37,139 bases of DNA, taken from Phycisphaerales bacterium (lineage in GTDB: Bacteria > Planctomycetota > Phycisphaerae > UBA1845 > G020352895). Under the pieces are notes generated by a model. It was not told the DNA's origin, did not search any database, and saw only the letters and a program-made list of their open reading frames with translations. Position numbers and translations under genes: made by a program. Location: contig CP070685.1 of NCBI GenBank assembly GCA_020352895.1, positions 3,167,683 through 3,204,821 of the forward strand. Reading direction: 5' to 3'. This document shows, piece after piece, positions 12,423 to 28,081 of the stretch; the stretch's first letter is position 1, and every line of letters begins with the position of its first letter.

Positions 12423-15203
12423 CTAATTGGCTACGAAATGAGCGTCCAGGGCCTTGTCGATGCGTAGCTTGGACTCGCGCAGATGGGCGCGGCTGAAGAC
12501 ATCCAGCCCCTTGCCATCGGCCTCCATTTTGTCGCCGATCTTGTTGGCCAGGTCCTCCAGCGTCACAAAGGCGACACTACGCACATCCGAAGGAATCCCC
12601 AATGCGTCCGCGTCTCTGAGCACGATCTCGATCATCAGTTGCAGGTACGAGCGCTGCAGACCTCGCCGAAAGCTCGAGATGGCCGGCTTGCCCTGCTCGT
12701 CTTCCTTATCAAGCTCGGACCAGATCGAGTCGGTCAGCGTTTCGAACAGCTCGGCGATGGTCATGGTCTTGGTGCCGTCCTCGAGCTGAAGCTCCTGACC
12801 GTAGATACGATTCAGCGTAAACGGGTTCAGCATGGTGAACAGGGCCTGGTACTGGATCTGGCGGATGATCTCGTGCACGGGATACTGCACGAACAGGTCG
12901 AACTGATCCGATCCCCAGTGTGCGAACCGTCCGGGTGCCATCCGGTTCAACAACTTCGGAGAGAACTCCAGCGTTCCGTCCGCAAAGACCTTGTCACACA
13001 CCAGCTTGAGAGCTTCGCGCTGCTTGGCTAGATCGACCACCTTCATGGCCGGCTGCTCGTTCGGATCGCCCTTATAGGTGTAGTTGAGCTCCATGCCGCC
13101 GACGAACCGCGCAGCGAACTCTACCGCCCGGTTGTACTGGCGCAGGATGCGGAACAGCGTCCGCCGCAGCTTGGCATAGCTCTCCCCGTCGTCCACCGCC
13201 CAGTCCTGCATGTCCTTGATCAGACGGCGTGCCTGCTCCATCCGGTAACTGACGAAATCCAGCGGGTCCTTGCCCATGTCGTGCCGGTTCACGTACGGAT
13301 CCGGCGAGAAAAAGAACGCATCCAGATCGCTGGCGAACTGCAGCCCCTCCTCACCGGCCCGGCCGGTAATCGACTTGAGAAGCTCATCTTCGCTCTTGAA
13401 CGGCTCCTCCACCGGCTTGTATCCGTACTCGATCGCCCAGTAGTCGTAGGGGCCGATCGTGTTCGTCACGAACTGCGGCGTGTGCGCCTCGCCCTTCAGT
13501 TTGAACACGATCGGGCTGTAGTCCATGATTGACCCAACGGTGGCACGGTTGGGCGCCGACTTGCCGTTGACGATCTCGTCCAGGTCCAACCAGGTGCTGG
13601 CCTTGAAGTTGTGGGTCAGTCCCAGGCAGTGGCCGACCTCGTGCGTGGCCACCTCCTTGACCATGGACCCCAACACCTCATCGCTCAGCCCTTCCTCCCC
13701 CTCCGCCTCGGCCGCCGCCGACGCAAAGGCGAGCTCCTCGGCCATACTCCGCGCGAATGCACAGCAGAACCGTCCCTCGCGGAACATCTGCTCGGCAAAC
13801 CGCGCCTCCAGCTCCTTCCCGCTCGGTTCGGGAACCAGCCCGTGCCGCAGGCTGTGCGAGCTGATGGGCAGCAAGCGCTCGCGAAACGACGGCGCCCGCC
13901 ACTGCGGGTGAGCCTCCAGGAACTCGTCCAGCAGAGCGTCGTAATCACCAACCATCGAGTTGGCCGCGTACGCCTCGGTATCCTCCACCATGACACGCAA
14001 AAACGAGTCATCCATGACAATGTCCGCGTCGAAGATCTGCCCGGTTCGCGGGTGGGCCCGTGACGGGCCGGCCGCAAAGGGCTGTCCCGTCACGATCCAG
14101 CGGAAGAAATTGTAGCGGACGTCTTCGGGGTCCAGGTTGGCGAACTCGGTGTCGGTCTGCTGACGCACCTGAACCGCATCCAGGAAGCCGCACTTCTCGA
14201 AGGCCTTGTTCCACTCGAGAATGCCCTCCTTAACGTACTGCCGCCAGCGTATCGGCACTGTCTTCTCAATGTACCAGACGATGGGCTCCTTGACCGGCGA
14301 CAGCTTCAGCGACGGGTCCACCTTCTGCAGGTTCCACCGCTCGACGTATCGATTGAAAAGCGTGGCGGCGTCGTGCTTCTTGCCCCAATCCATGGTTGCG
14401 GTCATGAAGTATCCGATGCGCTCGTCCGCCCGGCGCGGCTTGTACTCCGTCTTCGGCAGCTCGCTCAGGCTGTAATGCAACAGGACGCGCGTGGCCGTCG
14501 CCCCGGGCCCTTGTTCGCTCATGGCCGTCTCTACCGGCAACTCCACATTCTTGGGAAACGCCTTGAATTTGCCCCACTTGCTCAGCCCGGGGTGAACCGT
14601 GCCGCCAAAGAGACGCGACCAGCCCAGCATGTCAGACTTGAATACCGCCCCCAAGTCGACGAGCGGATCGCCGGCCGGACTCTCCGTCAGGATGTCCACC
14701 GTGCTGATGATCCGGGCAGTGAACGAACGCTTGATCACGTCGCTAAGCGTGGACTCGGCCGCTTCTTCGTACCGCACGTCCGGCTGCACCAGCAGCAGCT
14801 TCTTGCCCATCCGCTCCCAGTGCACCATACGCGTCCCCCATTGAAAACCGGTGAACTGGGAGCCGCCCGACACGCTTGTGGCCATCAGGAAGTCCGCGCC
14901 CAGCAGCCCTTTCGGTATCTCCGCCAGCAGCGTGTCCTCTTTCTCCTTGTACCACAGGGGCAGGAAGGTCTTCTCCTCCGTCGGGTCCGCCGAATCGACC
15001 TGCGTGAAGCCCTTGGTCACTGCCTCAAAGGGCGGGAACTCGGGCTTCTCCTCCGCTTCTTTCTTGGCCGCTTCGTCGCCAGCAGCTTTGGCCTCCTGCT
15101 CGCCGGCCGCCAGGGCCGGGGCGCCTACAAGTCGGTCGCCCGCAAGAACAACCACGGCAAAAGCCAACGCCGCCACAAATCCACATCGTCGGTACTGCCT
15201 CAT
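12423..15203 (-). CDS. Exported zinc metalloprotease (DUF5117/DUF4953 type)
   Basis: A large secreted metzincin-like protease of 926 residues. It begins with a signal peptide (MRQYRRC..., hydrophobic core VAALAFAVVVLAG, likely cleavage after ALA) and a Lys/Glu/Ala-rich linker. The zinc site HEVGHCLGLTHNF starts at His521 (His521, Glu522, His525, His531), the extended HExxHxxGxxH signature. The arrangement and length fit the family with DUF5117 in the first half and DUF4953 around the zinc site. Physiological substrates are unknown. Met at 15203 is chosen because AAGGAG lies 7 bases upstream; the Met one codon earlier is also possible, and the Met at 15227 lies upstream of that ribosome site. 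A terminator follows the gene. The exported peptidase at 16.2 kb hints at shared peptide breakdown outside the cytoplasm. Confidence 0.93.
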   Translation of the reverse strand: MRQYRRCGFVAALAFAVVVLAGDRLVGAPALAAGEQEAKAAGDEAAKKEAEEKPEFPPFEAVTKGFTQVDSADPTEEKTFLPLWYKEKEDTLLAEIPKGLLGADFLMATSVSGGSQFTGFQWGTRMVHWERMGKKLLLVQPDVRYEEAAESTLSDVIKRSFTARIISTVDILTESPAGDPLVDLGAVFKSDMLGWSRLFGGTVHPGLSKWGKFKAFPKNVELPVETAMSEQGPGATATRVLLHYSLSELPKTEYKPRRADERIGYFMTATMDWGKKHDAATLFNRYVERWNLQKVDPSLKLSPVKEPIVWYIEKTVPIRWRQYVKEGILEWNKAFEKCGFLDAVQVRQQTDTEFANLDPEDVRYNFFRWIVTGQPFAAGPSRAHPRTGQIFDADIVMDDSFLRVMVEDTEAYAANSMVGDYDALLDEFLEAHPQWRAPSFRERLLPISSHSLRHGLVPEPSGKELEARFAEQMFREGRFCCAFARSMAEELAFASAAAEAEGEEGLSDEVLGSMVKEVATHEVGHCLGLTHNFKASTWLDLDEIVNGKSAPNRATVGSIMDYSPIVFKLKGEAHTPQFVTNTIGPYDYWAIEYGYKPVEEPFKSEDELLKSITGRAGEEGLQFASDLDAFFFSPDPYVNRHDMGKDPLDFVSYRMEQARRLIKDMQDWAVDDGESYAKLRRTLFRILRQYNRAVEFAARFVGGMELNYTYKGDPNEQPAMKVVDLAKQREALKLVCDKVFADGTLEFSPKLLNRMAPGRFAHWGSDQFDLFVQYPVHEIIRQIQYQALFTMLNPFTLNRIYGQELQLEDGTKTMTIAELFETLTDSIWSELDKEDEQGKPAISSFRRGLQRSYLQLMIEIVLRDADALGIPSDVRSVAFVTLEDLANKIGDKMEADGKGLDVFSRAHLRESKLRIDKALDAHFVAN

Positions 15204-15755
15204 CATCGCACTCCTTCGTGCCACCATCCGTCAGGTGTTGAATTCCGCAGGGCTAGCCACCCCACCTCCGCCGTTTGCGGCCGGCCACACGACAGGCCGG
15301 CAGAAGCCCGCCCGGCCGGTACGCAGGACACGTGTTGCTCAGGCGCGACCTGCTACACTTTAGGAACCGACGCACGTTCCTTCAGAAACGGCAGAATGCT
15401 GCTTCAGCCCCCTTATCGTCCCCCCGATCGGAGCGGCATAGCAAATCACCCACCCTGCGGGCCGGTCGAACTGACCACGCTACTTATCAGCGTCGCGCAG
15501 CTCACAACGTGAGCCCGGCACGTCGCCGAGACCGCATCCGCTATGGCAATACTGATACACCCGCAGAGCCCCTCTTGTTCCCCCGCCGCGTCAAGGACCT
15601 TGCAGAATAGCCGCAGAGAGTCGATAATGCGGGGCTGCTCCGGGCCGCGGCTTGTCCGCATGGCCTCTAAGACCTTGAGATAAAGGCAGTTAAGCCGCCG
15701 GCCATGACGGTTCCCGGTGGCTCTCCGCAGTTGTCCCTGCAACAGGAACCGAATC
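15204..15755. other. Divergent intergenic region
   Basis: 552 bases between the minus-strand protease and a small plus-strand gene. It includes the AAGGAG ribosome site of the protease (complement of 15211-15216) and an inverted repeat GGCCGG/CCGGCC (15295-15300 with 15312-15317). No convincing -35/-10 pair was found on either strand, and the open frames here have no gene-like features. Confidence 0.5.
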
Positions 15756-18296: not shown

Positions 18297-19244
18297 GTGG
18301 GATCAACGATCGAGGACATCTATCCGCAGTGGCGGCGGAGCATCGAGGCGGTCGGCCGGCTCGACAAGCTCTTCATCGTGGGCTGCGCCAAGTCCGGCAC
18401 CACCTGGCTGCAGAACCTGCTGCACGCCCACCCGCAGATGGTGGTCCGCGGCGAAGGCTGCTTTACCTACCAACTCGTGCCCTTGCTCAGCCAGGCCTTC
18501 GGGGCCTTCAACAAACACCAGCACGACAAGGACCCCATCACGCACATGCGCGACGCTGAACTGCTGCTGACCGCGCGCACCCTGATCGACAGCCAGTTCG
18601 CCCGCTACATCAGCGAGAGCCGCAAGCAGGCGTCCGGTCTGCGGGTCGTCGGCGACAAGACGCCCCAGCACACCATCAGCCTGCCGGCCTTGCACCAGCT
18701 TTACCCGAAAGCGAAGTTCATCAACATGATCCGCGACCCGCGCGACGTGGCCACCAGCGCGTGGTTCCACTTCGGCAGGAACGACCAGCGCGGCTTCGAG
18801 GAGTATATACGCTACTTCATGACTCAGGTCTGGCCGCTCAACGTCAACGCTCCGGCACAGGTGGCCGCGCAACTCGGCCCGCGCTACCGCACTATTCGCT
18901 ATGAAGACCTGCACGCCGACGAGCCCGTCCAGCTCAGGGACCTGCTCCAGTTTCTCGGCGTGGACGACTCCGACGCGGCCGTCCGGGCGTGCATGGAGGG
19001 CGGCAGCTTCAAAAGGCACTCGCGCGGCCGGGAGCGCGGCCAGACCGACAACGACCACTTCTACCGCAGCGGAACCGTCGGCGACTGGCAAAACCACCTG
19101 CCGGTCAGTCTAATCCAGGCCTGCTGCGGGTCTATCAAGCCGCTGATGCAAGAATATGGCTATGACAATGGTCTGCACGAGCAAGCGGACGCACCGGGCC
19201 AGGACGGCCGGTCGACCCAGACGGTCGCGGGCAGACGGCGATGA
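18297..19244 (+). CDS. PAPS-dependent sulfotransferase
   Basis: The 315-residue protein has both cofactor motifs of the sulfotransferase superfamily. The 5'-phosphosulfate loop CAKSGTTWLQN has Lys32, and the 3'-phosphate motif RDPRDVATSAW starts at Arg146. A later IRYEDLHADE matches the usual YEDL segment, and the C-terminal FYRSGTVGDWQNHL matches the RxGxxGDW motif typical of cytosolic and Stf-type enzymes. It should transfer sulfate from PAPS to a hydroxyl or amino group; the acceptor is unknown. Planctomycetes have many sulfatases, but none is in this window. The GTG start follows GGAG with 8 bases between. The protein lacks a signal peptide. An EthD-like gene follows after 51 bases and may be cotranscribed. 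Confidence 0.92.
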   Translation: MGSTIEDIYPQWRRSIEAVGRLDKLFIVGCAKSGTTWLQNLLHAHPQMVVRGEGCFTYQLVPLLSQAFGAFNKHQHDKDPITHMRDAELLLTARTLIDSQFARYISESRKQASGLRVVGDKTPQHTISLPALHQLYPKAKFINMIRDPRDVATSAWFHFGRNDQRGFEEYIRYFMTQVWPLNVNAPAQVAAQLGPRYRTIRYEDLHADEPVQLRDLLQFLGVDDSDAAVRACMEGGSFKRHSRGRERGQTDNDHFYRSGTVGDWQNHLPVSLIQACCGSIKPLMQEYGYDNGLHEQADAPGQDGRSTQTVAGRRR

Positions 19245-19295
19245 CCCCGTCGCCTCGCGGCGCCGCACCGCCCATCCGATCGAAAGGAGAGCCAG

Positions 19296-19604
19296 ATGGT
19301 CAAACTGGTCGTCATATACACTGAGCCGACGGACGTTCGCGCCTTCGAGAACCATTTCAGCGAGGTTCACACTCCACTGGTCAAGAAGATGCCCGGCATT
19401 CGCCGATTGGAGAAGACCCGCTTTACCGGCGGCCCCCTCGAGCCGGCTCGATACTACCTCATGGCTGCGGTCTACTTCGATACTCGCGACGAGATGATGG
19501 CCGCTCTCAGCAGCCCGGAGGGCATGGCTGTGGCCAAGGATCTGATGTCCTTCGCCGCGGGAAAGGCCCATGTGATGTTCGGTGAGGTCGAGCAGATCGG
19601 GTAG
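19296..19604 (+). CDS. EthD-family small protein (dimeric alpha-beta barrel)
   Basis: The 102-residue protein fits the EthD domain in length and pattern: MVKLVVIYTEPTDVRAFENH, then EVHTPLVKKMPGIRRLEKTR, the aromatic strand YYLMAAVYFDTRDEM, and a final MFGEVEQ. These domains form ferredoxin-like dimers; some help in ring oxidation or modify small molecules, while most are uncharacterised. The start is well supported by AAAGGAGAG just upstream. It follows the sulfotransferase on the same strand, but no common pathway is evident. Confidence is high for the fold and low for any role. Confidence 0.85.
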   Translation: MVKLVVIYTEPTDVRAFENHFSEVHTPLVKKMPGIRRLEKTRFTGGPLEPARYYLMAAVYFDTRDEMMAALSSPEGMAVAKDLMSFAAGKAHVMFGEVEQIG

Positions 19605-19956
19605 GCCCCGGGCTCAGACGGCCACCCAGGACGCCGCTTGCCCGGCCCGGGAGCCGGCGCCTTCCCCGGCCGGCCGAGACGCGCCGCATGGCCGCTGGCA
19701 GAGTGGAGACCGCCTACGGGCTGTCGCCCCTTGCCCATTTCCCCCATTCGGCGGAAAACCTCCAGCCGGAGCGGCGCGCCGCCTTTCCTGCCTCCCTGCC
19801 TGCCGGGTGTCGCACTTGGCGGCAGAATCCGATACAATATCCCGATTGTAGGGTTCCCGCCCGACACTGATGTGCCACTTGAGCAGCGCGTGTAGTCGCG
19901 CGCGGGGTTCGTGTTGGATCACGGGCAAGTCGAATAATTGTGAGGTAGACAACATC
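19605..19956. other. Intergenic region before the DUF1573 gene
   Basis: 352 bases. The left part is GC-rich with overlapping GGCC/CCGG inverted repeats (about 19650-19680) that could stop transcripts of the EthD-like gene. The right part is AT-richer, with a -10-like TACAAT at 19833-19838 but no good -35. GAGGTAG at 19942-19948 is the ribosome site of the next gene. Short open frames here show no coding signs. Confidence 0.5.
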
Positions 19957-21309
19957 ATGAACGCAGTACTGCCCTATCGCACACAGGCGCGCTCGTGCCG
20001 AAGCGCGTCGTGGACCTGGGTGCCCCTGCTGGGGATGGCCCTGCTGCTGATCGGTTGCGCCGAGGCGCAGACCGAACAGGCCGAGGAGCAGTCCGCTCCC
20101 ACGGCCGAACAGCCTGCTCCCCTGAAGGAGGCCGACGCCAGTACGCTCCAGGCCAAGGAGATGGCCGCGGCCGCCGCCAAGGATCGGAAAGCGGAGGACA
20201 AGGACTCCGGATGCGGCACGGACGACAAGACCCCGTTCCCGCCGCCGGAGTTGGACCAGAGCCAGGCGGGTACCCCCCGCTATGTCTGCGCCAAGAAGCA
20301 GGTTGAGTCCAAGCCGGTCTGGGCCGGTGAGCGGCTGACCTTCAGCTTCACCATCGGGAACCAGGGCACGGGCGACTTGGCCGTCAAACTGAAGGGTGGC
20401 TGAGGGGTGAAGATCGCCGGTCGGTCCGACCGGGTCATCAAGCCCAACGCCACCGAAGAGTTCGAGATCTCGCTTTCGTCGGCCAACCGATCGGGCAAAT
20501 TCACCCGCAAAATCGGCGTGACCACCAACGATCCGAACCAGCCTTCCGACTCGCTGGCCTGCGTGGGCAACGTGCTTGTGCCTTTCAAGACCGTCCCACG
20601 CACTGTGAACTTTGGCCAGCTCAAGCGCTCCGCGGAAGCGCAGACCAAGACGGTCGTGCTGACGAGAGGTGACGGCGGGCCACTCAGTCCCGAGGTGCAG
20701 CCCAGCAGAAGGCCTAATGTCAAGACTAACCTGCGCGAGATCGAGCAGGGCGATAAGTATGAGCTCGACGTGACCATCGAGCCGCCCTGGCCCAACACCC
20801 TCCGCTTCCGAGATCTCATCAACATCAACACGGGCGTCCCCGAGGCGCCACGAGGCAGCGTTACCGTGCACGCCCAGATCGTGCCCCGGCTGGAAGCCCA
20901 ACCGAAACAATTCAGCCTGCCCGGCGCCTTCCCCCAGGGACTGCAGCGCACGGCCAACCTCATCTGGGACGATGGCAACCCCGGCAAGATCATCGATGCC
21001 ACGGTCAACGATCCCGAACTGAGCGTCGAAGTTGTCGAGCAAGGGGGACGGCAGCGCCTGGTCCTGTCCGTGCCCGAAGGCTATCAGCAGAAGCCGGGCC
21101 GTCGCCAGGTCACGGTTCGCACGGAGGATGCTGACGCCCCGACACTTCAGGTGCCGGTGAGCTTTACGCGTTCCAGCGCAGGGCGGCCCGCCGTCAACCG
21201 GGCAAAAATGCCGCGCGGGCGTAGTCCCCAGGGACGGCCTCCGCCGAAGCGGATGGGAACCACGGCCACCGAGCCTCCGAAAGAGCAGCCGCCCGAGGAG
21301 GGGAAGTAG
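19957..21309 (+). CDS. DUF1573 lipoprotein with in-frame UGA (candidate selenoprotein)
   Basis: One reading frame runs 450 residues, broken only by TGA at 20401-20403 (residue 149). It begins with a lipoprotein signal ending LLIGC (Cys34), then a Gln/Glu/Ala-rich linker. Residues about 120-190 are a DUF1573 domain: VWAGERLTFSFTIGNQGTGDL before the UGA, VIKPNATEEFEISLSS and GKFTRKIGVTTNDPNQP after it. In the family this position holds the first Cys of a CGC motif. The remaining residues form further immunoglobulin-like beta domains. The downstream half has no signal peptide and starts mid-domain, so it is not an independent gene. Selenocysteine insertion is supported by the position and the stem-loop downstream; a nonsense mutation (TGC to TGA) or a sequencing error is the alternative. 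The ATG follows GAGGTAG with 8 bases between. The domain's function is unknown. Confidence 0.8.
20404..20445 (+). promoter_or_regulatory. SECIS-like stem-loop immediately after the in-frame UGA
   Basis: CCGGTC (20417-20422) pairs perfectly with GACCGG (20428-20433) around the loop GGTCC. Below it GAT (20412-20414) can pair with ATC (20437-20439), and GGG just after the UGA with CCC (20443-20445), with internal loops. Nineteen bases separate the UGA from the apical loop, and the loop starts GG. Bacterial SECIS hairpins such as that of E. coli fdhF lie directly after the UGA, within the coding region, with a G at the start of the apical loop (GGUC in fdhF). GC-rich DNA gives such stems by chance, so this is supportive, not decisive. 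Confidence 0.5.
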
Positions 21310-22112: not shown

Positions 22113-22709
22113 GTCGCCTACTCCCGGCCGCGTCTGCATGTGCCGCCGTCTGGACCTGGCCCGTTTGAGCCTGACAACTTCTCGTTACCTCAGCCTGGCT
22201 CGGCCCGAAACGCCTCTGAGCCGCCTGACGATGGGCCGGACACGCCGCCGCCCGAAACGCCGCTGGCCGCGGCGCGGCGGTGCGGCCTTCCTTGACACCC
22301 CTGATGTTAGGGGTAGGATCATAGTAGAGAAAGAGCTAGCCATTGTTCCCGCCATCGGCGGGCCAGCCTGATGTTGCCAACCGGGCCCCCTGAAGGATCA
22401 GTGACCAGTTTTCCGCGCTAGTCGCCTGTGTGTCCCGCCTTGCAGGGTGCCTTCTGGTGGCGCCGGAACCATGGCCCTGGCGGCCGCGGAGTTCGGCTCT
22501 GCCTTTACTTCGCGGCGCCAGAGAAGGATACTGTGCCCCAACCGAGTCCGCCAGGCGCGGGCTCGCCTTGGAAAGCACCGACAAGCGGCGACCCTCCGCA
22601 CCCCGATGGGCCGGAATCCCCAGCCGCTCGCGGTTACGTCGGCGCGGTGAACAGCCACGAATCCCGCCGCCGACCGGCCCAGCCCGGTCGGCTTACGAAG
22701 GAGTCCCCT
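22113..22709. other. Divergent intergenic region with a long leader
   Basis: 597 bases between the dUTPase-like gene and the pilus operon. A strong plus-strand promoter candidate with an internal palindrome lies at 22292-22319. If used, it leaves an untranslated leader of about 385 bases. That leader includes a tight hairpin, CCCGCC (22348-22353) pairing with GGCGGG (22357-22362), without a T tract. AAGGAG at 22698-22703 is the pilM ribosome site. The leader is open in the pilM frame from 22428, but that part lacks motifs and a ribosome site. No known riboswitch was recognised. Confidence 0.55.
22292..22319 (+). promoter_or_regulatory. Candidate promoter with palindromic operator for the pilus/secretion operon
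   Basis: A consensus -35 TTGACA (22292-22297) and TAGGAT (22314-22319, 4/6 match) are 16 bases apart. The inverted repeat ACCCCT (22297-22302) and AGGGGT (22309-22314), with a six-base spacer, fills the space between them. That is the usual place for a repressor or MerR-type activator site. It points toward the pilM-like gene at 22710. Confidence 0.5.
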
Positions 22710-24857
22710 ATGGCTGCTCCTAAGGAAGCATGGGGCTTGGACGTCGGACAGGTAGCTCTCAAGGCCGTCAGAATCCGCGAACTCGGCGATCGCGTCGAGG
22801 CCATCGCCTACGACTACATCGAGCATCCCAAGGTGCTCTCTCAGGCGGACCAGGACGCGGACGAGCTGATTCGTCAGGCCATCGAGAAGTTCGCCTCCCG
22901 CAACGAGGTCGGCTCCACGCCGGTCGCCATCGGCGTGCCGGGCCATCACACCCTGGCCCGATTCACCAAGCTGCCCCCCGTCGACACCAAGAAGATTCCC
23001 GACATCGTCAAGTACGAGGCCGAGCAGCAGATCCCCTTCGACCTGGACGAGGTCATCTGGGATTACCAGGTCTTCGGCGGAGAGGGCGGCCCGGACCTGG
23101 AGGTGGGCATCTTCGCCATGAAGCGGGACCTGATCGGCACCCACTTGGCCCCGTTCGTCGCCCAGGGCATCCAGCCGGGCATCGTCCAGGCCGCCCCGCT
23201 GGCCATGTTCAACGCCCTGGTCTATGACGGCATCGCCGAGGTGAGTGCGGAAAACGCCGCCCAAGGCACTGTCATGCTGGACATCGGGGCCGTCAACAGC
23301 AATCTCATCATCGGGGCCGGCAACGGACTGTGGACGCGAACCATTCAGATCGGCGGCAACACCTTCACCGAAGCTTTGGTCAAGGTCTTCAAGCTTTCCT
23401 TCTCCAAGGCCGAGAACCTCAAACGAACCGCCCCCAGCAGCAAGTATGCCCGCCAGGTCTTCCAGGCCATGCGCCCGGTCTTCGCCGACCTGGTTGCCGA
23501 GGTACAGCGATCCCTCGGCTTTTACAGCTCCACGCGCCGTGATGTGAAGATTGTCCGCCTGATCGGCATGGGCAACGCCTTTCAGATGCCCGGCCTGCAG
23601 AAGTTCATTCAGCAGAACCTGGGCATCGAAGTGATCAAGCCGGAGACCTTCAACAACCTGGTTCCTACGACCGGCACCCACCCCAAGGAGTTTCAGGAGA
23701 ACCTTCTGGGCTACGGGGTCGCCTATGGTCTGGCGCTCCAGGCTCTCGGGCGAGGCCGCGTCACCAGCAACCTCCTGCCCACCGAGATCAGCCGCCAAAC
23801 CGTCTGGCGTACCAAGCATCCATGGTTCGCAGGCGCGGCCGCTTGCCTGCTCCTGGCTGCGGGCATCATTTGGGCCCGCCAGTTCATCGACAAAGGTGCT
23901 TTGGCGACGGTCAGAGGAGATTACGACGGGCGCATTCCCACAATGACCTACGAACAAGCCCGCGACCAGTTGGCCCGAGGGGGCGTCTCGGACAAGCCTG
24001 CCCGTGAGTACGCGGCCGAGTGGCTGGCGATCGCTAAGGCCCTCAACGACGAGATGGCCAAGAAGCAAGAGGAAGGCAAGGCTCTGCGCGAACAGTTGGA
24101 GCGCCTTGGCGACCTGCAGACCAATAAGAACACGGTGCTAGCCGTGCTCAACGCCCTTCACCAGGCCCTGCCCAATGCCGACACACCTTTGAACCGGTCG
24201 GCCACCATGAAGGAGTACGCCGAGCTGGCCAAGGATGAACGCTTCGTTCGCGACAAGCGGCAGGAACTGTACATTGACGAGTTCGAATGCTTCTACGATC
24301 CCGATGTCGTCAAGCTGGCTTACGACACCATCCCCCAGGACGAAGAACTGGGCAACATGTATGAGTATCCCGACGACTACATAGCCCCCGGCTTCGTGAT
24401 CCAGATGAGGTTGCGCAGCCCCAACGCCAGTGCTCAGTACCCCGACGAGACCTTCATCGCCAACCTTCGCCGGTTCAGCCGGCAGCCCGATCGCGACTTC
24501 TATTTCGACTTCATCCGCGTGGTCTCCCGACGGCAGCTCCGAGGCGGCTCCCGGCTGGACCTGGTGGTCGCCCCCACCGTTGCCGGGGCTCGCGGCGGTT
24601 CTGCTCGAGAGCAGGAGGAGGCCGCCAGTCGCCTGGATCCCGTGACCGGTGAATCTATGGAAACCGACTGGCAATACATCGTTTCTCTCATGGTCATTCT
24701 GGGCCAGCCGCCACAAGAATTCGCCGGCGAGGCGCCGCCCGAGGCTGCGGCCGAGGCGCCCCGAGAACCCCCACGAGATCGTGCGGATCGTCGCCGCGAG
24801 CAGCCGCCGGAGGAAGAAGAAGATATGCCTAGTGAGGATGAAACCAGGCGCGACTAG
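22710..24857 (+). CDS. pilM: PilM-like ATPase fused to a membrane-anchored PilN-like region
   Basis: Residues 1-360 of 715 match PilM, the actin-fold cytoplasmic protein of type IV pilus and type II secretion assembly. The first phosphate motif is GLDVGQVALKAVRI, then IPFDLDEVIWDYQVF typical of PilM, the second phosphate motif MLDIGAVNSNLIIGAGN, and a C-terminal VAYGLALQALG. Unlike PilM, the chain continues through a transmembrane helix at about 371-392 (WFAGAAACLLLAAGIIWARQ) into 320 residues with a coiled-coil stretch and a mixed alpha-beta part, ending in a Pro/Glu-rich tail. This suggests that PilM and its membrane partner PilN are one polypeptide; the PilN assignment is inferred from order and topology. 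ATG at 22710 follows AAGGAG by 6 bases. It is the first gene of a five-gene operon. Confidence 0.85.
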   Translation: MAAPKEAWGLDVGQVALKAVRIRELGDRVEAIAYDYIEHPKVLSQADQDADELIRQAIEKFASRNEVGSTPVAIGVPGHHTLARFTKLPPVDTKKIPDIVKYEAEQQIPFDLDEVIWDYQVFGGEGGPDLEVGIFAMKRDLIGTHLAPFVAQGIQPGIVQAAPLAMFNALVYDGIAEVSAENAAQGTVMLDIGAVNSNLIIGAGNGLWTRTIQIGGNTFTEALVKVFKLSFSKAENLKRTAPSSKYARQVFQAMRPVFADLVAEVQRSLGFYSSTRRDVKIVRLIGMGNAFQMPGLQKFIQQNLGIEVIKPETFNNLVPTTGTHPKEFQENLLGYGVAYGLALQALGRGRVTSNLLPTEISRQTVWRTKHPWFAGAAACLLLAAGIIWARQFIDKGALATVRGDYDGRIPTMTYEQARDQLARGGVSDKPAREYAAEWLAIAKALNDEMAKKQEEGKALREQLERLGDLQTNKNTVLAVLNALHQALPNADTPLNRSATMKEYAELAKDERFVRDKRQELYIDEFECFYDPDVVKLAYDTIPQDEELGNMYEYPDDYIAPGFVIQMRLRSPNASAQYPDETFIANLRRFSRQPDRDFYFDFIRVVSRRQLRGGSRLDLVVAPTVAGARGGSAREQEEAASRLDPVTGESMETDWQYIVSLMVILGQPPQEFAGEAPPEAAAEAPREPPRDRADRRREQPPEEEEDMPSEDETRRD

Positions 24858-24923
24858 CCCCAGGCTGCTCCAGCCCGTCTCTGCCACGCCGGCAGAGGCA
24901 CAGCGCAGAGAGGAGAACCCGGC

Positions 24924-26153
24924 GTGAAGTTCATGAAGCGGCATGCATTCCTGTTCATCTGTGCGGGCGCGGCCGCGATCGGAATCGGTTTGGCCGCGCT
25001 CGGCATGACCCGTGGGGCCGACGTCGTCCAGCAGCTCGAGGAAGGGCGCAGTCTGGCCGGCCAGATCGACACGTTCCTTGACCGCCAACCCGCTACCGTG
25101 GCGAACATCGAGCAGATGGACCGTCAGATCGAACAGCTGCGTGAGGCCCGCAATGCCTTCATGGAAGAGGCTGGCCGCGTGAACCGTCGCCCGCCGCTGA
25201 TCGAAGATTTCTTCCCTCAGCCGACTGACCCCGGGGCCCGCTATGCTTTCCAGGATGCCTACAAGGAACAGTTCGATCGGTTCCTGGCCGACCTGCACGC
25301 CGGTACGCTCGCCGACCGCGAGGAACTGAAGAACTGGAAATCCATGATTGATGAAGAGCTCCGGGCCTATAGTGCCGGTGAAACCCCGGTGGGATTCAGC
25401 AATGTGGACCCACTCGTGCTTGCCGAGTTGCCTGACGCAGTACGCTGGAACCACGCTGCTCGTGCCGCCATCTGGATAGCACGGCATTCGCGCTGCTACG
25501 CCGAGCTCGGCTCCTTCGACATCAAGGCCAGCGTCTACCAGGCCTCTGAGACGGATCCTCCGACCATGGACCGCTACTGGTCGGCGCAGACCAGCTTGTG
25601 GGTACAGCAGGATATTGTTGCGGCCATCCTCGCCGTTAACAACGCTCGGGCGGAGGAGTTGGCCTCAGCGGGTCGCGAGGACACGGAAGTCTGGGTAGGC
25701 CAGATGCCTGTTAAGCAGATCGTCGGGATCCGGGTAGGCGATTATCTTTACGAGGACCAGGAGCCGCCCCTGCTGGACGAGAGCCCGCTTCAGAGCATCT
25801 ACCAACGCCGCGGCTTCCAGGTGTCCATCGATGTGGGCAATCCGACAGAGGACGTATTGGCGGTCATCACGGAACGTGGTGGGACCCGGCAATTCGATGT
25901 GATGCACGTGCGTATCGTGCTCGTCGTGGATCCGCGTTATCTGCCCACGGTGCTCGACGAGATCCTGAAACGAAGCCTCTACACCCTCCTGAACGTGCGC
26001 TATCGCTACGTACCCGTGAGCCGGAATCACGTGGGCCTGCTGTATGGCTCCGATCCGGTGGTTCAGGTGGAGATTGATCTGGCTTCTCACTGGCTGAGCG
26101 AGATCTACTTCAGCATGATGCCCGACGAAACCAAGGACAGGCTGGGATTCTGA
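24924..26153 (+). CDS. Bitopic inner-membrane protein of the pilus/secretion operon (PilO/GspM-like by position)
   Basis: No family was recognised from sequence alone. The 409-residue protein has one N-terminal transmembrane helix (residues 6-28, HAFLFICAGAAAIGIGLAAL), followed by a coiled-coil segment (about 35-85) and a large periplasmic part. Near residues 315-370 the pattern FDVMHVRIVLVVDPRYLPTV and VRYRYVPV suggests a small alpha-beta, ferredoxin-like domain. Topology and position after a PilM-like gene match PilO/GspM, which form the inner-membrane platform, but this is inference. The GTG start has AGGAG 8 bases upstream; the Met three codons later is less well placed. It begins 66 bases after the previous stop. 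Confidence 0.8.
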   Translation: MKFMKRHAFLFICAGAAAIGIGLAALGMTRGADVVQQLEEGRSLAGQIDTFLDRQPATVANIEQMDRQIEQLREARNAFMEEAGRVNRRPPLIEDFFPQPTDPGARYAFQDAYKEQFDRFLADLHAGTLADREELKNWKSMIDEELRAYSAGETPVGFSNVDPLVLAELPDAVRWNHAARAAIWIARHSRCYAELGSFDIKASVYQASETDPPTMDRYWSAQTSLWVQQDIVAAILAVNNARAEELASAGREDTEVWVGQMPVKQIVGIRVGDYLYEDQEPPLLDESPLQSIYQRRGFQVSIDVGNPTEDVLAVITERGGTRQFDVMHVRIVLVVDPRYLPTVLDEILKRSLYTLLNVRYRYVPVSRNHVGLLYGSDPVVQVEIDLASHWLSEIYFSMMPDETKDRLGF

Positions 26154-26194
26154 TCACCCCGCACGTCCGCAGTGAACGGACGAGGTTTGCAGCC

Positions 26195-28081
26195 ATGGCC
26201 AAGCAGCGAATCAACGTTTTCGAAGCCCACGTTGAAAAGGCGGTGCTCGGTTTGACGGGTGCTGTGCTCGTCGTGGTGGCGTTCTTCTATCTCGTTCAGA
26301 CTCCCAACGTCATCGAGACCATGGGACAGGCATATGGCCCCGGCGACTACGACAGAGAAGTGGTGCGCACGAAGGCCGACAACCTGAAAGCGTTGTTCAA
26401 CCGCCCGCCGACAGCGCCGGAGCCGATCCCCGACATGCTCCGCGAGTTCAGGCGGCTTCAGGATCAGCCACTGGCCAGCGTGGGGGCCGCAGCCCACTGG
26501 CCCGCCATTCAGCCATGGCGGCCGTCCGTTCCCCCGGCCCTGGGAGTCAAGCCCACCCAACCCGGCCAGATTCTGCTGGCCCAAGTGGTGCCTCCCAATC
26601 AGCCTCTGGCCTATCCCGGGCTGACCACCATTGAAGTCGAGACGCCGCTGCCGCTCGGCGGTAAGCAGTTGTCACGATCGGAGCGGGCAGACCTGCAGGC
26701 CACGATTCGTGAGAAGGACTCCAGTTGGGTGACCGTTGCGGCCATCTTCGATCTGGAAGCCATGCGCCGCGAGTTCCGCGGGGCCCACTATGACAGCGAT
26801 CTGCAGGACATCATCATCTGTCGCGTCCGGGCCCAGCGGCAAAGACTGCTACCCAGCGGTGCCTACAGTGGCTGGGAAGACATCGAGCCTTGGACGCCGT
26901 ACGTCCGCCCCGAGCAACCCGAGATCCAACTCGTCCCCCGCGGTGACACATACTCACTGACCCAGAAACTCGCCGACAGCATCAGGCAATACATTGAGAC
27001 CATCTGGACCTACGCCCCCGAGATCAAAACCCCGCTACCGCCTTATTCGGTGGCGGGTGATGAGTGGCGTCTGCCGCCGCTCAAGGACATCAATTGGTGT
27101 TCCCTGGACCTGGAGTGGCTGCAATTGGCTCCCAACGAAGACGGTTGCAATCCGGTCTACGCCGAATTGCCCGAACCCGTCCAGGTGGCTGAGGGCGCTA
27201 AACCCGGCGCGTCGCTGCCGCGCGGCAAGCAGCGTAGCATGGCACGCAAAAAGGCCGCAGAGGATTACCGCCGGGCCGACGAACTCTTCGCCAGCGGCAA
27301 GCCGGACGACCTTTATGAGTGCGAACGCCTCCTGCGCGGCATTAAGGACAACAAGGACGCCTCCAAACGACTTAAGGAGAAGGCGGACAAGCTCCTGGCT
27401 GGCGTTCTCATCAAGATCGACGAACTTGAGGCCCAGCGAGCACCGGATGCCACCGAGCAGCAGCAAACGGACCAGGCCGCCGTGCCCAAACCGGACGAGC
27501 AACAGCCCGCCACGGTCGTCTGGGTCCATGACATGCCGATCGAGCCCGGGCAGACGTATCGCTACCGCTTGGCGGTGGACCTCTACAACACGTACGTGGG
27601 CAACTATGACAAGCTCAAAGACCTCTCCGCCGCTTCCAGCCTTTTCGTCCGTGGCGAGTGGTCGTTGCCCAGCAATCCGGCCACGGTCAAACCTGAAACG
27701 GCCTTCTTCGTAACCTCGGTCGACGGCCGGGAAGCCAAGATTGATCTGTACAAGTGGTTCCGCGGTCGCGTAGCCTACCGGAAAATCCGGGCCCAACTTG
27801 GCGAGCGCATCACCCTCCAGGACTTCGTGAAGCTCCCCGGCGAGAGCGGCCGCTTTGCGGTGGACTTCGATACGGGCTTTGACCTGATGAGCATGGAAGA
27901 CCGGAACGTGCTGGTCCGGGAGGCGGTGGGCCGCGAAGGGGCCTTTCGCTACCGCGAGGAATCCACGCCGGTCATCGTTTGTGCGGATGACCGGGGGCGA
28001 CTCATCGAGCGATGCAAGGCCACCGACGAGGAAGAGCAGCGTGAATGGGCAGCCCTGGCCAAGAAATTCAAGAGTGAGTGA
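26195..28081 (+). CDS. Membrane-anchored protein of the pilus/secretion operon, unknown family
   Basis: I do not recognise this 628-residue protein. It has a short cytoplasmic N-terminus and a transmembrane helix (about 17-36, AVLGLTGAVLVVVAFFYLVQ); the rest is probably periplasmic. A Pro-rich linker (about 60-130) precedes folded segments. Around 350-410 lies a helical-pair stretch (YRRADELFASGKPDDLYECE), then a Gln/Pro-rich linker. From about 445, EPGQTYRYRLAVDLYNTY looks like a fibronectin-type beta domain. A single helix with Pro-rich spacers resembles PilP/GspC or TonB-like proteins that span to the outer-membrane secretin, and the secretin gene follows. That role is inferred. It starts 41 bases after the preceding gene. 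Confidence 0.78.
   Translation: MAKQRINVFEAHVEKAVLGLTGAVLVVVAFFYLVQTPNVIETMGQAYGPGDYDREVVRTKADNLKALFNRPPTAPEPIPDMLREFRRLQDQPLASVGAAAHWPAIQPWRPSVPPALGVKPTQPGQILLAQVVPPNQPLAYPGLTTIEVETPLPLGGKQLSRSERADLQATIREKDSSWVTVAAIFDLEAMRREFRGAHYDSDLQDIIICRVRAQRQRLLPSGAYSGWEDIEPWTPYVRPEQPEIQLVPRGDTYSLTQKLADSIRQYIETIWTYAPEIKTPLPPYSVAGDEWRLPPLKDINWCSLDLEWLQLAPNEDGCNPVYAELPEPVQVAEGAKPGASLPRGKQRSMARKKAAEDYRRADELFASGKPDDLYECERLLRGIKDNKDASKRLKEKADKLLAGVLIKIDELEAQRAPDATEQQQTDQAAVPKPDEQQPATVVWVHDMPIEPGQTYRYRLAVDLYNTYVGNYDKLKDLSAASSLFVRGEWSLPSNPATVKPETAFFVTSVDGREAKIDLYKWFRGRVAYRKIRAQLGERITLQDFVKLPGESGRFAVDFDTGFDLMSMEDRNVLVREAVGREGAFRYREESTPVIVCADDRGRLIERCKATDEEEQREWAALAKKFKSE

Follow-up and report, generated by a model that had tools for sequence, protein, structure and literature searches.

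A predicted clade of selenocysteine-containing DUF1573 lipoproteins in the Phycisphaerae

A gene for a predicted DUF1573 lipoprotein in a Phycisphaerales bacterium (contig CP070685.1; the whole stretch of 37,139 nucleotides analyzed here is referred to as the window) contains an in-frame TGA, which raises the question whether this codon terminates the protein, reflects an error or specifies selenocysteine (Sec, U), the rare 21st amino acid. A previous sequence-only reading of the window had put forward the last of these possibilities, placing the UGA at the first cysteine of the CGC motif of the family. A single frame of 450 codons indeed runs from the ATG at 19957 to the TAG ending at 21309, with the TGA at 20401-20403 as its sole interruption, so that the sequence on both sides of the TGA is in the same frame, as had been stated. 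The match to the Pfam model PF07610 (E=2.6e-8, residues 113-197) includes residue 149, the position of the UGA, in agreement with the claim that the two halves form one DUF1573 domain; the score of 34.2 bits, compared to the Pfam gathering cut-off of 26.1, places the protein in the DUF1573 family. Along the predicted product, a lipoprotein-type signal is followed by a low-complexity linker, the DUF1573 domain and additional all-beta domains; judging from the signal, the protein is predicted to be exported and lipid-anchored. The features of the gene are compiled in the table.

Table. Predicted features of the Sec-containing DUF1573 gene (coordinates are those of the window)
Feature	Position	Strand	Basis
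Probable ribosome-binding site, GTGAGGT	19940..19946	+	inference from sequence
CDS, DUF1573 lipoprotein of 450 aa with Sec (U149) at the UGA	19957..21309	+	PF07610 match; whole-length homologues with one TGA
Signal peptide, lipobox LLIGC (C34)	19957..20058	+	translation inspected by eye
Cys86 codon, candidate Sec partner	20212..20214	+	Cys in 61% of the GUG clade, 0/26 CGC
Cys111 codon, candidate Sec partner	20287..20289	+	Cys in 70% of the GUG clade, 0/26 CGC
DUF1573 (PF07610) domain across the UGA	20293..20547	+	Pfam match; modelled as ASH/HYDIN-like Ig domain
UGA codon for Sec, residue 149, first Cys of the CGC motif	20401..20403	+	homologue alignment
Bacterial SECIS region 3' of the UGA	20404..20445	+	covariance model R1
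SECIS hairpin, 7-bp stem (20417-20423 with 20427-20433), loop GUC (20424-20426)	20417..20433	+	covariation, 34 sequences
Cys202 codon, candidate Sec partner	20560..20562	+	Cys in 80% of the GUG clade, 0/26 CGC, 0/7 UGC

The sequence-only reading had further maintained that coding continues for 300 codons beyond the TGA without decay, and this was borne out. The GC content at third codon positions is 0.86 in the 148 codons upstream of the UGA and 0.79 in the 301 codons downstream, both values being typical of coding sequence, and, given the base composition, a run of 300 codons would stay open by chance with a probability of about 4e-4. The dN/dS ratios after the UGA in the two closest pairs of homologues are 0.18 (0.025/0.142) and 0.24 (0.139/0.58), indicating purifying selection on the sequence 3' of the UGA (dN/dS of about 0.2).

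To trace the TGA among homologues, 114 genomes of the same planctomycete order (class Phycisphaerae) were searched and the TGA positions were mapped by script; a class-level search showed close homologues in seven further genomes, with exactly one TGA in each match. The order-wide search yielded 50 distinct TGA-bearing genes, namely 43 with the motif G-U-G (the GUG type, including the gene in the window) and seven with the motif UGC, so that 42 other genes of the window type and seven of the UGC type carry TGA at this very codon, the check that the sequence-only reading had recommended. In 50 of the 50, a single in-frame TGA is found at one alignment column, where neither TAA nor TAG occurs. 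In ordinary DUF1573 proteins, this column holds the first cysteine of the CGC motif, with which U aligns without a gap, as anticipated; cysteine occupies the column in all 26 CGC rows and all five CCG rows. In the GUG type, G-U-G is followed by T, V, M or similar, that is, in most of these proteins the second cysteine of the CGC motif is replaced by T, V or M. No window-type TGA gene was detected outside the order in a sample of 392 genomes from across the phylum, and the matching named records are metagenome-assembled genomes labeled Planctomycetota, Phycisphaerae or Phycisphaerales, with one named only as bacterium. The TGA-containing matches in three other genomes (G184, G045 and G400) were discarded; these are cysteine proteins for which the alignment seems to overrun the natural stop codon.

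Downstream of the UGA, comparison of 34 sequences revealed a hairpin with the characteristics of a bacterial SECIS element, and the same hairpin was recovered unaided by RNAalifold. Pairing reaches 93% in these 34 sequences; shuffling of the columns lowers it to 78%, and sliding the structure along the alignment lowers it to 48% or less. Compensatory changes on both sides of the stem were counted in 35 cells versus 9.9 expected, a value that none of 500 shuffles reached. The stem is paired at 94% in the 43 window-type genes and at 100% in the seven UGC genes, versus 43% in 37 cysteine homologues; in the cysteine forms within the clade, the hairpin is mostly lost (2-4 of the 7 pairs), the exception being L094, with 6 of 7. 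In all 43 window-type genes, the loop of 3 nt begins with G followed by G or U, and it starts 20 nt past the UGA; the folding energy is -19.3 kcal/mol in the window and -9.4 kcal/mol or lower in all genes. The published constraints on bacterial SECIS elements are a loop of 3-9 nt with an early G, a stem of 4-16 bp, a spacing of 16-37 nt and an energy of -7.5 kcal/mol or below (PMC13188914), and the DUF1573 hairpin falls within all four. The covariance model R1 gives 59 bits at the site in the window, which is among the 34 training sequences, versus 19 bits for the next-best site in the 3.6 Mb genome; the UGC genes, which are outside the training set, score 26-41 bits.

The selenocysteine machinery, which the sequence-only reading had suggested looking for, was found in the same genome except for selD. 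The selA gene scores 543 bits, above the cut-off; selB adjoins it, just upstream, with 232.7 bits compared to the cut-off of 242.25 and with the winged-helix and beta-barrel domains of SelB; and a tRNA-Sec with the anticodon TCA is present, so that selA, selB and tRNA-Sec all occur in the genome, as expected of a bacterium with selenoproteins. For selD, only weak matches were obtained in this assembly, a single contig rated 67% complete. Across the order, selD scores above the cut-off in 101 of the 114 genomes, and in most of them the selD gene contains a TGA of its own. In some genomes of the order, selD resides in a long TGA-free frame of about 660-810 aa, perhaps a fusion (L075-L078), and a relative with a 3.8 Mb assembly in one contig, also rated 67% complete (G233), likewise yields only weak selD matches. 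TGA forms are found in 41 of the 107 genomes that possess the sel machinery and in none of the seven that lack it (Fisher p=0.048), an association that is weak because all seven machinery-less genomes belong to one family (f3).

Given the single frame, the conserved TGA, the covarying SECIS hairpin, the machinery except selD, and the purifying selection after the UGA, we consider it highly probable that UGA149 is decoded as Sec and that the gene encodes a genuine selenoprotein. The failure to find selD in this assembly and the similar hairpin kept by the cysteine form L094 count against this reading. The candidate status proposed by the sequence-only reading thus stands on the conservation of the TGA in dozens of relatives together with the sel genes, and the covarying hairpin adds independent support; nothing came to light of the kinds of result that this reading had named as refuting it, that is, absence of sel genes, absence of relatives with TGA at this codon, or reads with a different base. 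A pseudogene or a sequencing error, whereby a TGC or TGG codon was mutated or misread as TGA and the gene was broken, might be suspected in a one-contig assembly rated 67% complete, in which errors are possible in general; a base-call error is, however, implausible because the TGA is shared by dozens of relatives, and the 42 other distinct genes from many assemblies, along with the dN/dS of the downstream part and the covariation of the hairpin, already refute this explanation and leave it with practically no probability. The possibility that the UGA is a real stop followed by a separate gene of 300 codons starting from GTG at 20407 takes its appeal from the position of this GTG directly 3' of the TGA, but codon 151 varies within the clade (T, V, M, F, L, I), so that the GTG is not conserved, which counts against a separate gene. 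Moreover, the DUF1573 domain extends across the UGA, the cysteine forms from the same clade run through unbroken, and the downstream part has no signal peptide by eye, as the sequence-only reading had also noticed; such a gene seems very improbable. A similarly slight chance is assigned to decoding of the UGA as another amino acid (Trp, Gly or Arg), via an altered code or plain readthrough, in favor of which we found nothing specific: the column holds Cys in relatives rather than Trp or Gly, and both a tRNA-Sec(UCA) and a SECIS element are present. Several neighboring genes, for example those for a sulfotransferase and a dUTPase, end in an ordinary TGA stop, so the genetic code is not altered genome-wide, and a genome-wide code change was rejected.

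The sequence-only reading knew of no described DUF1573 selenoprotein, and on this point it has to be corrected. A DUF1573 domain-containing selenoprotein with the motif UGC is tabulated in two publications (PMC9312934 and PMC13188914), the first of which, a review from 2022, gives Zhang and Gladyshev 2007 as the reference for this entry, and the NCBIfam model NF041425, named OS_HP2 (seleno)protein, matches the protein from the window; from the reviews and NCBIfam combined, OS_HP2 is probably the listed DUF1573 UGC entry. In the literature searched, these two publications were the only ones in which DUF1573 occurred together with "selenoprotein", and no selenoprotein study of Phycisphaerae was found. 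Because a UGC DUF1573 selenoprotein is already listed, the window type is not wholly new. It shares with OS_HP2 the DUF1573 domain and Sec at the first cysteine of CxC, but scores 52.4 bits (E=5e-14) against the NF041425 cut-off of 100 bits, and is by that rule a relative rather than a member. The motif is UG[T/V/M] instead of the UGC of the published selenoprotein; furthermore, the window protein differs from OS_HP2 in having new cysteines at positions 86, 111 and 202, and the window type was found here only in one planctomycete order. The UGC-type genes of the same order (L097-L103) have the TGA in the same column and the hairpin at an equal distance, but retain the second cysteine, group with the CGC proteins and lack C111 and C202. 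What is new appears to be a separate clade with Sec but without the neighboring second cysteine. Sec thus occurs in two separate clades of DUF1573 proteins that differ in their motifs. For the Phycisphaerae, an environmental group, the new clade contributes at least 43 selenoprotein genes, which automatic annotation would be expected to truncate at the UGA.

In a quick phylogenetic tree, computed with the motif columns masked and without bootstraps, the window-type genes cluster with the CCG genes, with strong support and to the exclusion of every CGC and UGC gene, and the UGC genes are placed among the CGC genes. On at least three occasions within this cluster, Sec seems to have been swapped for Cys, judging from the tree and the sequences, each time with a second Cys preceding it (GGUG to GCCG, PCCG or TCCG). 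This recurrent exchange of Sec for Cys-Cys amounts to a natural experiment on the need for Sec. Most of the cysteine forms in the Sec clade carry the vicinal CC pair (L094, L061, L071, L082 and L096), L095 (PTCAT) being an exception. Tandem pairs of Sec-DUF1573 genes were also observed (L081/L121 in G259 and L082 in G200); in the G200 pair, Sec is present in one copy and Cys-Cys in the other, as though duplication had permitted the loss of Sec.

No solved structures were found by sequence, and a structure model of high confidence (mean pLDDT 87.5) was built from 15 Sec-type sequences. The best structural matches of this model are chains of the axonemal central apparatus, followed at lower rank by all-beta proteins such as titin and cadherins; we take the axonemal matches to represent ASH/HYDIN-type Ig domains. 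With TM-scores as low as 0.2-0.3 over the query, only the type of domain can be safely inferred. In the model, residue 149 falls within the first domain, in a turn that connects two strands.

In the mechanism we propose, the product would be an exported lipoprotein built of Ig-like (ASH/HYDIN-type, DUF1573) domains, in which SelB and tRNA-Sec would read UGA149 as Sec under the guidance of the SECIS hairpin downstream. The selenol, presumably the reactive group, would replace the first cysteine of CxC in the loop of the first Ig domain. Residue 151 is Cys in none of the 44 rows of the window clade, and with this second motif cysteine lost, Sec149 probably pairs with a cysteine elsewhere in the protein (C86, C111 or C202) or with a partner protein of the thioredoxin type. 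A structural disulfide between C111 and C202 was considered and not adopted because the two cysteines do not strictly co-occur (both in 26 sequences, one alone in 9 and 5, neither in 4).

With respect to function, the chances that the Sec-DUF1573 lipoprotein has a thiol/selenol redox role in the envelope seem about even. Such a role is suggested by Sec itself and by the domain fusions of the cysteine paralogues: a paralogue in this genome (L137:593-3586) combines DUF1573 with three thioredoxin/AhpC-TSA domains, and those of three relatives (L138, L139 and L140) combine it with three to five thioredoxin/AhpC-TSA/redoxin domains. These CGC fusion proteins, of about 900-1200 aa, have the same domain as the window protein, with Cys at the Sec position, but differ from it in carrying Cys rather than Sec, in the CGC motif, in mostly lacking the hairpin and in being multidomain; their active sites are CxxC in the relatives and CGFS (CxxS) in the copy from this genome. 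The tandem thioredoxin modules fused to the cysteine paralogues suggest a first, testable function for DUF1573, a domain of unknown function. Against a redox role stand the fold, Ig-like rather than thioredoxin-like, and the lack of conserved neighbors. The main functional rival, owing to the Cys-Cys substitutions, is a selenoprotein in which the Sec/Cys site binds a metal or metalloid (of the copper, mercury or arsenic type) rather than taking part in thiol redox chemistry. Vicinal Cys-Cys is a known soft-metal-binding arrangement, and the replacement of Sec by this pair at least three times, as well as the Ig-like fold, would agree with such a site; on the other hand, the thioredoxin/redoxin modules of the paralogues point to thiol exchange, and metal genes are not recurrent nearby. 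We regard metal binding as unlikely; it concerns only the functional half of the interpretation and leaves Sec decoding of UGA149 untouched. More tentatively still than the redox role, and somewhat against the odds, Sec in the loop of an Ig-like, non-thioredoxin envelope domain, which has lost the neighboring cysteine, relies on a relocated cysteine partner and was repeatedly replaced by vicinal Cys-Cys, might constitute a redox or metal site so far undescribed for selenoproteins.

Clustering of the ORFs around the homologous loci revealed no widespread recurrent neighbor genes; the large clusters seem to consist of frames that overlap the DUF1573 gene itself or run antisense to it. In the window, the gene is preceded by sulfotransferase and EthD-domain genes (18297-19604, plus strand) and followed by a PilM-like gene (809 aa) and two unmatched ORFs (22428-28081, plus strand), perhaps a type IV pilus assembly cluster. 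Farther upstream, on the minus strand (12423-15227), a Met-zincin protein (DUF4953/DUF5117) is encoded, and a similar protein is found near the homologous gene in L122.
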